44,717 bases of DNA from a virus. Shown in pieces: positions 1-19,222 of the stretch. The DNA is taken from IMG/VR virus record IMGVR_UViG_3300000553_000076, positions 1 to 44,717 of that record. One strand, written 5' to 3'. Below the pieces are notes generated by a model. The model worked only from the letters and a program-made list of their open reading frames with translations, was not told where the DNA came from and searched no databases. Within the stretch, counting starts at the first letter, position 1, and each line of letters begins with the position of its first letter. The position numbers and the translations under genes were made by a program.

Positions 1-73
1 GAAGCTTACTCTTGGTCTATTTGATAAGTTTACCTGGGACTACTTGCACACTGGTGGCAAATTGATGGTTGCA
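1..73. repeat. Left copy of 73-bp terminal direct repeat (contig overlap)
   Basis: These 73 bases are identical to the last 73 bases of the window. The repeat lies inside a coding sequence and the frame stays open and in phase across the junction. The simplest explanation is a circular or circularly permuted genome linearised by the assembler, not a genuine short terminal redundancy. Confidence 0.95.
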
Positions 74-952
74 GAGGGTTACTTAGAGAAAGCTCGTATC
101 CAAGCTGCTAAAGAAGGCAAACCATTTGATGAGACTAAAGCTCGTAAAGAGATCTCTAACTTTGTCAATGACTCCTTTGGTGGTTTGAATTGGTTTGAAG
201 CTGCTACGTCTGCTCGTACTGAAATGGGTAAACGTATTGCTATGGCTGCATACAACCCTGCTGGTCGTAGAGCATTGCAACTAGCATTGTTTGCTCCCGA
301 CTGGACTATCTCTACTCTTCGTGCCTTTACTGCTGCTTTGCCTAAAGACCTTAACCCAACTAAGTGGCAACCTGTAGAAGGCATTAAAGGCATGATGGCT
401 CCTACAACCAAAGCAGACTACGCTAGGTTGTATCAGTTTAAGACTGCTTTGACTTACTTCACCTTGTTGAATGCTATCAACATGATGACAGCTAACAGAC
501 CTATCTGGGAAAACAAAGATGCAACTCGCATTGAGTGGCCTGATGGTACGTCTATGCAAGCTATGAAGCACGCTATGGAACCGTACCACTGGATTGCTGA
601 TCCAGATAAAACTTTGTCTAACAAGTTGGGGTTTATACCAAAAGCTGCTATTGTTGGTATTGGTGGTTTGGAGTACGCATCTCCTGATGCCCCTAAACTA
701 GTTGACCGCAGTGCTATTGGTAGACTAGAAGCTGTAGGTAAAATGGCTGTGCCTTTCCAAGTATCAGCAGCTAGTACTGCTCCTGAAGGAGAAGGTGCTA
801 AGAGAGCGTTACTGGGAACATTAGGCTTCCCCATCTATGGTGGCACTGCCGAACAACGTAAACAACAAAGAGCCGAACGTGAGAAACAACTTAAAGAAGC
901 TGCTAAACGTTACAAAGAGAAGGCTAAGGAAAAAGGTTGGGATCAACAATGA
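2..952 (+). CDS. C-terminal part of the 1,243-aa ejection/large polyvalent protein
   Basis: This is the end of the gene that starts at 41865 and runs off the right edge of the window. Joining base 44717 to base 74 keeps the frame and gives 1,243 residues in total. This part is helix-rich and contains an NDSFGGLNW segment followed about 50 residues later by LFAPDWTISTLR. I recall that pairing from the C-terminal domain of large phage polyvalent proteins (LPD38 type), a name I have not checked. The tail is strongly basic and charged (KQQRAEREKQLKEAAKRYKEK). The stop overlaps the next start as ATGA (949-952), so the ATP-grasp gene is probably translationally coupled. Its probable role is a virion protein ejected with the DNA, as T7 gp16 and P22 gp16 are. 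Placement in the gene is certain; function is inferred. Confidence 0.85.
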   Translation, partial: KLTLGLFDKFTWDYLHTGGKLMVAEGYLEKARIQAAKEGKPFDETKARKEISNFVNDSFGGLNWFEAATSARTEMGKRIAMAAYNPAGRRALQLALFAPDWTISTLRAFTAALPKDLNPTKWQPVEGIKGMMAPTTKADYARLYQFKTALTYFTLLNAINMMTANRPIWENKDATRIEWPDGTSMQAMKHAMEPYHWIADPDKTLSNKLGFIPKAAIVGIGGLEYASPDAPKLVDRSAIGRLEAVGKMAVPFQVSAASTAPEGEGAKRALLGTLGFPIYGGTAEQRKQQRAEREKQLKEAAKRYKEKAKEKGWDQQ

Positions 953-2280
953 AACTTCTAATCATTGACCAGTTTGACTGTGGCTTCTCTATGGACTTGG
1001 CTATCAAGTCTGCTGCTTATGGTCATGAAGTACGTGTGTACATGCGTAACAACTTTGATGGTAGCCGTTGTGAGAACGGTGATGGTATGGACTGTTTCAA
1101 GAAGGTAGCTGATTGGGAATCCAGTATGAACTGGGCTGACCTTATCTTTGTTACTGATAACAGTCGTTACATCCAGAAGCTTGAGAGCTATCGTCGTAAG
1201 GGTTATCCCATCTATGGCTGCAATGTAGAGGGTGCTCGTTGGGAACAAGATCGGGAGTACGGAGCTGCTGTTTTTGAGAGAGCTGGTATCCCAATTATTC
1301 CTACCATGAAGTTTTCTAAATACGATGAGGCTATTTCTCACGTTCTTAGTAACAAAGACAAACGCTTTGTGTCTAAGCCTATTGGTGACGGAGACAAGGC
1401 TCTTAGCTACTGCTCTAAAGACTGGCGAGACATGGTGTTCATGTTGAACAAGTGGAAGAAGAGCAACGCCTATGACGGTGACTTTGTTCTCCAAGAGTTC
1501 CACGCTGGATCTGAGATGGCTGTTGGTGGTTGGTTTGGTTTGGGTGGCTTCTCTAAACACTTCCTTGAGAACTGGGAGTTTAAAAAGCTAATGTCTGGTG
1601 ACTACGGTCCTGCTACTGGTGAGCAAGGTACTGTTATGCGTTACACCCAGAAGTCTTTGTTGGCTGACAAGGTTCTTAAACCCCTTGAAGACTTTCTTCA
1701 CGGCATTGGTTACTCTGGCTACATTGATGTCAACTGTATCATTGATAATAAGGGTAATCCCTGGCCTCTAGAGTTTACTACTCGTCCTGGTTGGCCTCTG
1801 TTCCAGATCCAACAAGCTCTTCACATTGGTGATCCTGTGCAGTGGATGCTTGACTCTCTTGATGGTAGAGATACTCTTAAGGTTAAAGAAGACATTGCTT
1901 GCGGTATTGTTGTATCTCAACCTGACTATCCCTATAGCAACGTTAAGAAGAAGGAGAACACTGGGTATCCTATCTTTGATTTGACTATGGAAGATGCTAC
2001 TAAGAACATCCACCTGTCAGAAGTTAAAATGGGTTTTAGTCCTGGTAAAGACGGTAAAAACACCGAGCCTTGCTTGGTAACTGCTGGTTCTTATGTGTTG
2101 ACTGTCTCTGGTGTCGGCAAGACTGTTGATGATGCTAAGTGCAAAGCATACGATACGTTCAAGAAGAAGATCCACATGATCAACTCTCCTATGGTACGAG
2201 ATGACATTGGTGAGAAACTTGAGAAGATGTTGCCTGAACTGCAAAAGAACGGCTATTGCAAAGACGTTAAGTACAAGTAA
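949..2280 (+). CDS. ATP-grasp enzyme, PurD-like (phosphoribosylamine-glycine ligase-like)
   Basis: A 443-aa protein starting at the ATG inside the ATGA overlap with the ejection-protein gene; an upstream in-frame TTG at 937 is less likely. The N-terminus (MKLLIIDQFDCGFSMDLAIKS) resembles the Rossmann-like start of PurD. The middle has ATP-grasp features: FVSKPIGDGDKA as an ATP-binding lysine/glycine loop, VLQEFHAGSEMAVGG as the hinge and second strand, and GYIDVNCIIDNKGNPWPLEFTTRPGWP as the metal-binding C-terminal segment. PurD joins glycine to phosphoribosylamine using ATP. This copy sits in the late virion operon between ejection protein and tail fibre, far from other metabolic genes, so its substrate may be a small molecule or a peptide. 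The ATP-grasp fold is well supported; the exact reaction is not. Confidence 0.8.
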   Translation: MKLLIIDQFDCGFSMDLAIKSAAYGHEVRVYMRNNFDGSRCENGDGMDCFKKVADWESSMNWADLIFVTDNSRYIQKLESYRRKGYPIYGCNVEGARWEQDREYGAAVFERAGIPIIPTMKFSKYDEAISHVLSNKDKRFVSKPIGDGDKALSYCSKDWRDMVFMLNKWKKSNAYDGDFVLQEFHAGSEMAVGGWFGLGGFSKHFLENWEFKKLMSGDYGPATGEQGTVMRYTQKSLLADKVLKPLEDFLHGIGYSGYIDVNCIIDNKGNPWPLEFTTRPGWPLFQIQQALHIGDPVQWMLDSLDGRDTLKVKEDIACGIVVSQPDYPYSNVKKKENTGYPIFDLTMEDATKNIHLSEVKMGFSPGKDGKNTEPCLVTAGSYVLTVSGVGKTVDDAKCKAYDTFKKKIHMINSPMVRDDIGEKLEKMLPELQKNGYCKDVKYK

Positions 2281-2282
2281 TC

Positions 2283-4247
2283 ATGGCTAACCCTAACACC
2301 CCCATACCACAGTCTCCCATTGGGGAGAATTTCCAGTGGAGAGATTGGTTCCAAAGACTTAGTAACCGAGTCTATGGATCGTTGTCTTCTCAGAACTCTA
2401 ACGGAGTGGACATTACTGGTGGGACTATTGACAACACAGCTATTGGATCTAAGACCCCCTCTACGGGGTCTTTTACTAGCTTAAAGCTAGGTGCTCCCCT
2501 TGATGTTGAGTACGGTGGTACTAATGGGTTTGCTATACCTAGAGCTGGTGCTGTAGCTTATGGTAATGGTGGTGCTTACGCTTTCACAAGTGTCGGTACT
2601 TCTGGACAAGTACTGACATCTAGAGGTAGTGCTGCTCCTGTTTGGTCTGCTGCTGCCACTGGTACTGTCACTAGTGTTGGTCTGTCACTGCCATCTATCT
2701 TTAGTGTTAGTGGCTCTCCTGTTACTAGTAGCGGTACTCTTACTGGTACTTTTAACACCCAGGCTGCTGCTTTGGTGTTTGCTGGCCCTGCAACTGGTAG
2801 TGCTGCTACTCCTACATTTAGAGCTTTAGTTGCTTCTGATTTACCTTCTTTACCTTACGGTACTGGTACGGTTACATCTGTTAGTGGTACTGGTACTGTC
2901 AATGGTATTACGTTGACTGGTACAGTTACAACTACTGGGTCATTAACATTAGGGGGAACCCTAAGTGGCATATCAAACAGTCAGCTTACGTACTCTAGTA
3001 TTACGGTCAATGGTACTAGCATTGCTCTGGGTGCTAGTGGATCGATTACTGCCGCGAATCCCTACGCCCTTACTATTGGTACTGGACTTTCTGGTTCCTC
3101 TTATATCGGCTCATCTGCAGTAACAATTGCTCTAGCCAATACAACTGTCAGTGCTGGTAGCTATACCTATGGTTCGTTTACTGTTGATGCTCAAGGTCGA
3201 TTGACTGCAGCATCTAGTGGTACAGCTCCTGTTACTTCTGTTGCAGCTACAGCTCCTATTGCTAGTAGTGGTGGTACAACTCCAACCATTTCTATATCCC
3301 AAGCTACAACCAGTACCAATGGTTATCTAAGTAGCACGGATTGGAATACGTTTAACAACAAACAGCCAGCGGGTACATACGTAACCTCGGTGTCTGGTAC
3401 TGCCCCTGTTGTATCGTCAGGCGGCACAACACCTGCTATCAGTATGGCTGCAGCTAATGGCAGCACTAATGGTTACTTGACCTCAACTGATTGGACAACC
3501 TTTAACAATAAGCAGCCCGCAGGTACGTATGTTACGTCTGTATCTGTAGCTTCTAGTAATGGGTTTGCTGGTACTTCTAGTGGTGGAGCTACTCCATCGT
3601 TAACGTTGTCCACAAGTATTACTGGCTTGTTGTATGGCAATGGTACAGCTTTAGCTGCTGCAACTATTAGTAGTCCATTAGCCTACTCTGCTGGTACATT
3701 AAGTATTGGTCAGGCTACAACATCTACTAATGGCTATTTAAGCAGTACTGATTGGAACACTTTTAATAATAAGCAACCTGCTGGTTCTTATTTGACTGCT
3801 GTTACTGCTGATGCTCCTCTGTCTGGATCTGGGACATCTGGTAGCCACTTGGTTATTTCCCAAGCTACTACTAGCACTAACGGGTATTTGTCTTCTACAG
3901 ACTGGAATACATTTAATAACAAACAAGCTGTATCCACACCTGTTACCATCTCTGCTAGTACGTACAGTGTTGGTACAACAGACCTATGGCTTATCAACAA
4001 CTATGCGGGTACGTGTACTCTTACACTTCCTGCAGCATCAAGTTATTCAGGAAGAGTTTTAAATGTTCAAAACTATCAAGCTTACACTGTTGTGTCTGCT
4101 TCTAGTAACGTTGTTTCTATTAGCGGTGGTAGCGCAGGTACGGCTATCCTTAACGCTATAGCCGGTGATAGATGTACACTTGTATCTAACGGCACTAATT
4201 GGTTGATTACTGATTACACACCTAACAACATTCTTCTGTTGAATTAA
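2283..4247 (+). CDS. Tail fibre protein with internal repeats
   Basis: A 654-aa protein very rich in Gly, Ser and Thr. The N-terminal roughly 90 residues (QWRDWFQRLSNRVYGSL, then ITGGTIDNTAIGSKTPSTGSFTSL) look like a virion-attachment domain seen in podoviral and cyanophage fibres. Residues from about 80 to 550 are a long run of TGTVTSV/SGTAPV-type beta repeats. They include four copies of a 16-residue unit close to TNGYLSSTDWNTFNNK, each followed in three cases by QPAGTYVTSV-like text. The last ~90 residues (LTLPAASSYSGRVLNVQNY, then GDRCTLVSNGTNWLI) look like a small C-terminal beta domain. It should be a trimeric receptor-contacting or spacer fibre. It starts 3 bp after the ATP-grasp gene without a clear Shine-Dalgarno sequence. 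Confidence 0.8.
   Translation: MANPNTPIPQSPIGENFQWRDWFQRLSNRVYGSLSSQNSNGVDITGGTIDNTAIGSKTPSTGSFTSLKLGAPLDVEYGGTNGFAIPRAGAVAYGNGGAYAFTSVGTSGQVLTSRGSAAPVWSAAATGTVTSVGLSLPSIFSVSGSPVTSSGTLTGTFNTQAAALVFAGPATGSAATPTFRALVASDLPSLPYGTGTVTSVSGTGTVNGITLTGTVTTTGSLTLGGTLSGISNSQLTYSSITVNGTSIALGASGSITAANPYALTIGTGLSGSSYIGSSAVTIALANTTVSAGSYTYGSFTVDAQGRLTAASSGTAPVTSVAATAPIASSGGTTPTISISQATTSTNGYLSSTDWNTFNNKQPAGTYVTSVSGTAPVVSSGGTTPAISMAAANGSTNGYLTSTDWTTFNNKQPAGTYVTSVSVASSNGFAGTSSGGATPSLTLSTSITGLLYGNGTALAAATISSPLAYSAGTLSIGQATTSTNGYLSSTDWNTFNNKQPAGSYLTAVTADAPLSGSGTSGSHLVISQATTSTNGYLSSTDWNTFNNKQAVSTPVTISASTYSVGTTDLWLINNYAGTCTLTLPAASSYSGRVLNVQNYQAYTVVSASSNVVSISGGSAGTAILNAIAGDRCTLVSNGTNWLITDYTPNNILLLN
3299..3926 (+). 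repeat. Four copies of a TNGYLSSTDWNTFNNK-encoding unit
   Basis: Units lie at about 3299-3366, 3453-3515, 3713-3776 and 3861-3926 within the tail fibre gene. The protein unit is almost invariant (one copy reads STNGYLTSTDWTTFNNK) while codons differ widely between copies. That indicates old duplication under protein-level constraint and not recent slippage. Confidence 0.85.
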
Positions 4248-18044: not shown

Positions 18045-18076
18045 AATAAATAAAAATGGGGAACTAAGTCCCCATT
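18045..18076 (-). terminator. Intrinsic terminator after the first leftward gene
   Basis: On the leftward transcript AATGGGGA (18069-18076) pairs with TCCCCATT (18055-18062), loop CTTAGT, followed by TTTATTTATT. It has an 8-bp stem and a good T tract. It sits 7 bp after the 77-aa gene, making that gene a separate short transcript or a partly attenuated leader of the arm. Confidence 0.8.
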
Positions 18077-18082
18077 GGAAGG

Positions 18083-18316
18083 TTAGAGAGTAGCAGTACC
18101 AACAGCACGTTGTGCAGCCTCTGCTTTCATAGTTGCACGAATGATCTTGATAGCATTGAGCGCATCGGTAAGTTCATCGGTATGAGGATTACCGTACTTC
18201 TCCATAGACCACAGAGCGTTGGAGAGCAACTGCTGTGCCAAGAAGATCTGAAGACCGGCAGGTTTACGTTCAGTCATGATGTTGAACTGATTGAAGTCGA
18301 AGTTGTTTTGAGACAT
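18083..18316 (-). CDS. Hypothetical early protein
   Basis: A 77-aa protein (MSQNNFDFNQFNIMTERKPA, then GLQIFLAQQLLSNALWSMEK), helical, first gene of the leftward arm. AAAGGAAC precedes the ATG. The gene start, including the ribosome site, is partly duplicated in inverted orientation at 18543-18575. It is followed by a strong terminator. No family recognised. Confidence 0.65.
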   Translation of the reverse strand: MSQNNFDFNQFNIMTERKPAGLQIFLAQQLLSNALWSMEKYGNPHTDELTDALNAIKIIRATMKAEAAQRAVGTATL

Positions 18317-18560
18317 TTGAAAGTTCCTTTAAGTTAAGTTGATTAAGCGGAGGGGTTTTCATCCCCCTCGCAACGGCGGGGGGTGAAAATCACTACGCCA
18401 ACTTAACCAAGCGGAGGCCCTGAACACACAACAGAACGAACAGGTCGCACGGCACATGACAGGTTCCGCTTGCGGGTTCTGGCGTGGGACGGGCTAGTAG
18501 CAGGCGATAGCCCCACAACAGAACGGGGGCCGTAGCGCAGTCTAAAGGAACTAAATGTCT
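18314..18560. repeat. Inverted repeat of a gene start flanking a GC-rich segment
   Basis: The left arm (about 18314-18331) is the ribosome site and first codons of the 77-aa gene. The right arm (18543-18560) is its inverted copy: TAAAGGAACT, then AAATGTCT, with three bases missing between them. The 211 bp enclosed are GC-rich and carry a direct repeat CACAACAGAACG (about 18427 and 18514). No gene is supported inside. Confidence 0.6.
18356..18389. other. Strong 12-bp hairpin in the early leader
   Basis: TTTTCATCCCCC (18356-18367) pairs with GGGGGGTGAAAA (18378-18389), with one G-T wobble and a 10-base loop. It lies 40-73 bp upstream of the 77-aa gene. No T tract follows on either strand, so it is more likely a leader or stability hairpin than a terminator. 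Confidence 0.55.
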
Positions 18561-18803: not shown

Positions 18804-18823
18804 TGTGGATAACCTGTGGATAA
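18804..18823 (-). promoter_or_regulatory. Tandem DnaA boxes
   Basis: TGTGGATAA occurs at 18804-18812 and again at 18815-18823; the complement is the consensus DnaA box TTATCCACA. The start-to-start distance is 11 bp, close to one helical turn, so two DnaA molecules would bind on the same face. Host DnaA is the expected ligand, since the phage encodes none. Confidence 0.7.
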
Positions 18824-18900: not shown

Positions 18901-19074
18901 CTAGTATCCTGAGGTGGGGGGAGGGGGAAAGTACTCGTTGTTGTTTTTAGATTTATAGCAATCCGTAACGCTGCCATAGTTTTTAAAACAAAGGGGGGAT
19001 GCTAAGGTCTATGTTGGTGCTCGTCCTTACAGGACTCGCAAGTGTGTGTGTCTGTGATAGACAGAACGATAGTG

Positions 19075-19102
19075 GAAAAAAGAAAAGGTCCTTACGGACC
19101 TT
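19075..19102 (-). terminator. Intrinsic terminator, leftward
   Basis: AAGGTCC-GTAA-GGACCTT forms a perfect 7-bp stem with a four-base loop on the leftward strand (19085-19102), followed by TTCTTTTTTCC. It lies about 90 bp downstream of a strong leftward promoter and no ORF lies between. Confidence 0.8.
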
Positions 19103-19185
19103 ACATACTTGTGTACTGCGTACACCTACTACTATAGATATACCTGAACAAGAAAAATAGAAAAACGGTAAAAAGAAAAAAGAAT
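19075..19185 (-). ncRNA. Candidate ~105-nt small RNA or attenuated leader
   Basis: The segment between the consensus promoter and the terminator would give a transcript with a U-rich 5' part, a hairpin GTGTAC-GCA-GTACAC (19111-19125) and the terminator hairpin. It has no start codon with a ribosome site and no ORF. It could be a free small RNA, or an early leader in which termination is relieved to feed the leftward arm. The start site is estimated from the -10 box. Confidence 0.55.
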
Positions 19186-19191
19186 ACAGTA

Positions 19192-19222
19192 ATTATATCC
19201 AAGAGCTACCAATTCTTGTCAA
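19192..19222 (-). promoter_or_regulatory. Leftward sigma70 promoter with consensus hexamers
   Basis: On the leftward strand TTGACA (19217-19222) and TATAAT (19192-19197) are both perfect consensus, separated by 19 bp, two more than optimal. It is the best promoter match I found. Transcription would start near 19185 and run toward the early genes. Confidence 0.7.

Follow-up and report, generated by a model that had tools for sequence, protein, structure and literature searches.

The DNA analyzed here (the window) is a 44.7-kb virus record in which a leftward consensus promoter, sited within a divergent junction, appears to run into an intrinsic terminator before it reaches the early genes. This arrangement raises the question of what the promoter is for. 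The original prediction named two possibilities: a discrete RNA of about 105 nt made in quantity, or antitermination that controls the whole arm, as the put RNA does in phage HK022. The promoter–terminator pair is in itself ordinary, but the sequence between its two parts is not. The predicted transcript begins with a homopyrimidine mirror repeat (19184–19150), a feature that had been missed, and most of the argument below turns on it.

The promoter region comes from an uncultured tailed phage. To the left of the site, leftward genes encode replication proteins (DNA polymerase, a DnaB-like helicase, primase and exonuclease) together with CobT/CobS-like proteins, and to the right, rightward genes encode terminase, portal and capsid; the GC skew changes sign at the junction, at about 18300–18500. 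The nearest named phages by terminase, both below 60% identity, are MW202796 (Manatee Spring) and Alcaligenes phage vB_Af_QDWS535. No nucleotide relative of the 1-kb intergenic region was found among named phages, and a nucleotide search with the left 25 kb returned short polymerase matches to 10 records only. A tRNA search found none. Rfam 15 covariance models at the gathering score identified no family in the window or in nine other loci, most of them from the second phage group described below, and a permissive search gave RefA1 below threshold (E 0.053) on the opposite strand. Three large rightward ORFs at 44–4247 on the plus strand (302, 447 and 654 aa) have no PHROG match. With duplicates removed, terminase, p77 and small-terminase searches for relatives, p77 being the first early gene, left 84 distinct junction regions, of which 48 have a pyrimidine element, 16 are assessable but lack one and 20 are too short. 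The 48 elements were picked by pyrimidine richness around AC[CT][GC] and not by symmetry, so their 4-nt center is partly built in.

The promoter itself is as originally predicted. On the minus strand, a −35 hexamer TTGACA (19222–19217) and a −10 hexamer TATAAT (19197–19192) are separated by 19 bp, more than the ideal spacer length. This is the sole exact TTGACA-N15..20-TATAAT site in the window; shuffled sequences contain 0.07 on average, and a site is present in 7 of 100 shuffles. Sigma-70-like sites with 16–18-bp spacers number 17 in the 14-kb stretch scanned, compared with 24.3 in shuffles, and hexamer matches alone are therefore weak proof. The promoter is convincing because it is conserved in relatives. 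The −35 is exactly TTGACA, in the same place, in 43 of the 48, and the best −10 sits 5–9 nt before the 5′ pyrimidine arm (gaps of 5–10 nt searched). Four relatives (L182, L183, L190 and L234) have a poor −35 but a −10 of TATAAT or TACAAT, while L257 has neither hexamer. Given this compensation between −35 and −10 and the constant place of the site, we take the promoter as real, and an immediate-early leftward promoter is its best explanation. The predicted start adjoins the 5′ arm of the mirror (Table 1). In line with the prediction, no ORF of at least 50 aa is present there on that strand, and a coding origin of the mirror was rejected on this ground. An exact leftward TTGACA-N17-TATAAT is also present at about 13600 in Alcaligenes phage vB_Af_QDWS535 (L303), at the same divergent junction. 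By eye, no pyrimidine mirror was seen at that junction, and long AT-rich DNA follows the promoter instead.

Table 1. Features of the leftward leader and first early gene, in the predicted direction of transcription
Feature	Position	Strand	Basis or remark
Sigma-70-type promoter, TTGACA-N19-TATAAT	19192–19222	−	Exact match and conservation
Predicted transcription start (A), 7 nt past the −10 hexamer	19185	−	Inferred from spacing
5′ arm (S1) of mirror, TTCTTTTTTCTTTTT	19170–19184	−	
4-nt center, ACCG	19166–19169	−	All 48 relatives have ACYS, which the selection partly required
3′ arm (S2) of mirror, TTTTTCTATTTTTCTT	19150–19165	−	With A at 19158 bulged out, a 15-nt mirror of S1
GTTCAGGTA motif behind the mirror	19141–19149	−	Conservation; about GGTYCAGRTA in relatives
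Lineage-specific hairpin, GTGTAC-GCA-GTACAC	19111–19125	−	Read from the sequence; among relatives noticed, by eye, just in the close ones L167 and L171
T1, intrinsic terminator with T-rich tail	19078–19102	−	7-pair hairpin; in 11/48 relatives by rule
Hairpin GCGAG-TCCT..AGGA-CGAGC with tandem G/A flanks	19019–19039	−	By rule in 32/48 relatives, 8 different stems
C-run and TTTGTTTTAAAA block, conserved	18981–18998	−	By eye in relatives
Two tandem DnaA boxes, TTATCCACA	18804–18823	−	Exact matches
p77, first early gene, conserved small protein	18083–18316	−	
T2, terminator directly behind p77	18055–18076	−	

In typical relatives the mirror reads TTCTTTCTTTT-ACTG-TTTTCTTTCTT. A perfect mirror of at least 11 nt, and with it the homopyrimidine mirror form that characterizes H-DNA, is found in 41 of the 48 relatives. 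Of the seven imperfect cases, four (the window, L167, L171 and L294) carry an A inserted in the 3′ arm and two (L182 and L183) a C-to-G change in that arm; the seventh is L257. In the window the mirror spans 15 nt but is imperfect, being interrupted by the single inserted A (19158) that L167, L171 and L294 share. The core pattern is present exactly once in 12 of 14 near-full-length relatives, and the pattern read backwards is found in none; of the remaining two, L039 is without the element and L057 has an interrupted arm. The element is absent in 16 of the 64 distinct relatives whose region could be assessed, and is therefore not essential across the wider family.

Arm lengths vary among relatives, the inner T-run counting 4, 5 or 6 and the outer one 3 to 7, and each arm tracks the other. 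Among 11 distinct arm states, the inner T-run is equal in all 11 and both runs are equal in 9; permutations average 4.1 and 0.9, and not one of 100,000 did as well. On a small-terminase tree, the left, right and joint arm states require 15, 15 and 15 changes, respectively. A sign test on well-supported branches pointed in a single direction throughout, with 4/4, 2/2 and 3/3 plus 1 unchanged, but the sample is small (p 0.125 at best). Judged from these sequence comparisons, the mirror symmetry of the arms is kept by selection through paired changes.

A mirror with the same ACYS center and longer arms is found in at least 36 other phage contigs and in at least four places in two Bacteroidetes genomes. 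The arms of this second group are mostly 18–23 nt among the matches listed. The scan patterns were symmetric near the center, so only the outer extension is unbiased evidence; the 40 elements considered were required to have a TTGG..CAG motif upstream, and a slightly different earlier rule gave 34, in each case among the matches listed. These distinct elements, at least 40 in number, reduce to 12 arm pairs, 9 of them mirroring without a flaw over 18 nt, where permutations average 0.9 and reach 6 at most. A plain direct repeat was rejected, as the arms are 99.6% mirror-identical over 18 nt compared with 86.8% at best as direct repeats. A U-U paired RNA hairpin was rejected too: it would predict A-U and G-C replacements, whereas over 12 distinct arm pairs the facing bases are T/T (181), C/C (31), C/G (2), G/C (1) and G/G (1). 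The order of parts also differs between the groups. In the second group, a TATATATTTG-like promoter, which we take to be of the Bacteroidetes type, is followed by a stem with exchanged base pairs, by TTGGWWCAGRTA and then by the mirror, which lies tens of nucleotides into the leader and not at the transcript start. In the window's family the similar motif GGTTCAGGTA stands behind the mirror. Of the 40 listed elements, 30 have a same-strand ORF within about 260 nt behind them (one neighbor being a NinG-like gene), 5 have only an antisense ORF and 5 have none; those last 10 do not fit an operon leader.

Two uncultured Bacteroidetes genomes account for at least four of the 40 listed elements, with two in each. 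These copies, at L490 (2800–2920 and 8050–8215), L491 and L492, have non-phage neighbors such as hydrolases, and just upstream of one of them is a SAM-II-like match of 27 bits, below the cutoff of 44. In many listed second-group elements (L341, L393 and L435, for example) a third pyrimidine stretch upstream also mirrors the 5′ arm, often with G facing C; an ad hoc rule picked it out, and no weight is placed on it here.

What could such symmetry serve? We infer that a homopyrimidine mirror of this kind is explained neither by Watson–Crick pairing nor by copying of one arm to the other. Triplexes, by contrast, call for just such a mirror in a homopyrimidine strand, which is why a triplex is suspected. 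H-DNA is described as needing a mirror repeat while tolerating substitutions in the center (PMC4666352, PMC9171763), and in the triplex, as outlined in the same sources and in PMC13125764, one arm is paired in the usual way with the purine strand while the other runs alongside. Mirror repeats are normally represented in most prokaryotic phyla according to one survey (PMC4060949). On the evidence of its symmetry, the mirror most likely forms a triple helix. Flaws are commoner in the 3′ arm, in a small sample, and would suit that arm as the third strand. Some arms have G facing C, a combination outside the standard triplets of the parallel motif, and this counts against a triplex. In both groups, each collected with flanking motifs, it is the pyrimidine strand that is RNA-like and lies behind a promoter, and this leans towards a role in transcription. 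No long purine strand for an RNA-only triplex was seen in the leader. The triple helix could be H-DNA within the DNA, or could arise when the arms of the nascent RNA clamp the purine template strand.

The first of these forms might act without any contribution from the RNA, as a supercoiling-sensitive switch that shuts the promoter or helps to open a nearby origin. The sequence rule for H-DNA, as given in the literature cited above, is mirror symmetry with a short center; moreover, the element occurs in a single copy per genome, beside a divergent junction that has DnaA boxes and the GC-skew switch. The window contains four exact DnaA boxes where 0.49 are expected, a replication origin at the two tandem boxes of Table 1 is probable, inside the early leader, and the leader probably crosses that origin, since these two boxes and the skew switch both lie at the divergent junction. 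However, exact TTATCCACA is found downstream in only 18 of the 48 relatives. Also against a switch in the DNA are the RNA-like, promoter-downstream pyrimidine strand of both groups, as collected with flanking motifs, and the place of the second-group mirror away from the start. We therefore regard a switch of this type as doubtful, though worth keeping in view.

The layout farther downstream bears on what the leader does. Between the leader start and the origin block, the hairpin at 19019–19039 has many exchanged stem pairs in relatives (the rule used misses stems with 2-nt loops). At 18981–18998 a C-run precedes TTGTTTAAAA and a block resembling GCAGCGTTA, an arrangement that even distant relatives lacking the mirror retain; on the plus strand, this stretch and 18916–18931 are rich in G. 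By eye, apparently mobile CGCAG...CTGC hairpins are inserted at the C-run block in the leaders of L224, L234, L212 and L273. Beyond the origin, p77 has homologs of 71–84 aa in relatives. Its model, a confident one, consists of three helices (pLDDT 86.9); no Pfam or PHROG family matched, and a PDB fold search with the model found no match at E ≤ 0.001.

A terminator lies within 130 nt past the p77 stop in all 36 relatives that have p77, and in many the next gene starts a few tens of bases behind it. Sigma-70 promoter scores in the roughly 275 nt behind T2 are not above shuffles (mean best score 7.8 compared with 8.2 under a simple base shuffle; 1 of 34 at or above 10), and no leftward sigma-70-like site of at least 9/12 was found between p77 and the promoter at 19222–19192. 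With T2 in 36 of 36 and no promoter above shuffles behind it, the leftward arm therefore seems to need read-through, and its layout is that of early operons under antitermination. Both observations favor control of the arm by read-through or by antitermination, the latter as had been suggested earlier.

Given this layout and the place of the element at the start of the transcript, we tentatively propose, as a best guess held at somewhat less than even odds, that the leader works like put: an element at its 5′ end, in which we infer a triplex, would let RNA polymerase pass terminators into the replication genes. The proposal starts from what can be read in the DNA, namely the promoter, T1, T2, the conserved symmetry and a stretch behind T2 that has no sigma-70-like promoter. 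Transcription would start near 19185 with the pyrimidine mirror that selection keeps symmetric. The 5′ element, together with the motif and the hairpin behind it, would modify the elongating RNA polymerase as HK022 put does. The modified polymerase would read past T1, where this lineage has it, and past T2, which every relative with p77 has, and so enter the replication genes. Transcripts lacking the element would stop as a leader of about 107 nt or behind p77. Against this, T2 could simply leak, or promoters of a different type could serve the replication genes. It is a more speculative step, and on balance an improbable one, to extend the proposal to a class of leaders in which an ACYS-centered mirror with paired changes forms a triplex between nascent RNA and template DNA that reprograms polymerase to read through terminators, a class spanning the early leaders of phages with either promoter type, sigma-70 or Bacteroidetes, and reaching into two Bacteroidetes genomes.

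If the terminators are simply leaky, T1 and T2 would merely tune expression, and the tract would be an initial transcribed sequence read by polymerase or by a protein, with no triplex involved. Such read-through requires no special element. A strong −10 also accompanies T1, as if expression were being balanced: 10 relatives have both, 35 have neither, and 1 and 2 are mixed. That association vanishes once relatedness is respected, with about one independent pair for it and one against, and we dropped it as phylogenetically confounded. Leaky terminators explain neither the joint change in arm length nor the same mirror in unrelated phages, and we consider this account fairly unlikely.

T1 bears on the possibility that the product is a stand-alone RNA. 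Its hairpin, AAGGTCC-GTAA-GGACCTT (19102–19085, 7 pairs), is followed by a T-rich interrupted tail, TTCTTTTTTC; it confirms the predicted 7-bp hairpin with a T tract, and the further hairpin that had been noticed between promoter and terminator is likewise present, at 19125–19111. The scan of 14 kb found 19 terminator-like sites, where shuffled sequence gives 10.1 ± 2.9. The predicted RNA, from 19185 to 19079 (about 107 nt), folds at −23.3 kcal/mol with a z-score of −3.9, and its first 33 nt are unpaired in the fold. A consensus promoter, a perfect hairpin with a T tract and a stable fold would suit an abundant RNA that acts in trans, with leak-through serving p77, and other lineages have terminators of different stem sequence near the T1 position (11 of 48 relatives by rule). 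However, 37 of the 48 have no terminator there by the same rule, so the 3′ end is not conserved; the middle hairpin is lineage-specific; far relatives share only about the first 45 nt of the RNA, as read from their sequences; and no Rfam family was reached at threshold. The promoter thus reads into a terminator before the early genes in this lineage, but not as a general property of the family. T1, like the middle hairpin, is lineage-specific, and the predicted discrete RNA is not the conserved part of the locus. An abundant RNA of about 107 nt is possible in this phage; that it is the purpose of the locus is unlikely.

That low-complexity T/C tracts gave rise to the mirror by chance or mutation is very improbable. 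Other T-rich mirrors are indeed seen (an exact one in L017 among the loci gathered at that stage, and mirrors of 18 and 11 nt in genome loci L461 and L470, outside the family and possibly coding), but slippage would alter each arm alone, whereas all inner T-runs match here, and just six of the 25 listed genome matches to the inner pattern, 4 of them family members, reach a length of at least 11 nt.

The put-like leader, if correct, would represent a new type of early-gene control and give a leader motif to search for in uncultured phages, whose hosts would be of two kinds or more. The wider class of triplex leaders, if it exists, would provide natural comparative evidence for a selected triplex in prokaryotes. 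The case for triplex functions in cells has so far consisted of triplex-capable sequences rather than evolutionary proof. Paired change of two arms is for triplexes what covariation is for stems, and it makes the triplex question testable in a short, plasmid-sized piece of phage DNA. In the literature searched, we found no description of the element, nor of a mirror repeat held by paired changes across a phage family.

Among known systems, HK022 put is an RNA of about 70 nt with two stem-loops that acts through the β′ zinc-binding domain of RNA polymerase without a phage protein. Like put, the element described here lies directly downstream of an early promoter and ahead of terminators. It differs in being an all-pyrimidine mirror at the 5′ end, unpaired over the first 33 nt in the predicted fold. 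A put-like pair of stem-loops was not found in the leader, whose downstream hairpins are lineage-specific or farther away. The analogy originally drawn with put is thus one of position and logic only. In putL of HK022, encoded immediately behind PL, the first stem adopts an RNA triplex (PMC9378689). The arrangement here, in which a leader is followed by one small early gene (p77) and then by a terminator before further early genes, also resembles that of lambda. There, an early leader with nutL precedes a small early gene, a terminator and further early genes, and the hallmarks are boxA, boxB and an N-type protein. Unlike N, p77 has a three-helix model and no family match, and does not look like an arginine-rich N peptide. 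Bacterial ITxF/TMECO repeats (PMC4666352) are a conserved intrastrand triplex motif of prokaryotic intergenic DNA, dispersed over chromosomes and folding within one strand, for which the authors found no tie to phages; the mirror described here differs from them in being all-pyrimidine, single-copy and promoter-linked. With H-DNA mirror repeats it shares a mirror symmetry that is strict in most relatives, a short central interruption and a place next to a promoter, and it stands apart from typical repeats of that kind in its short T-rich arms of 11–15 nt, with a symmetry that appears to be held by paired changes across a phage family.
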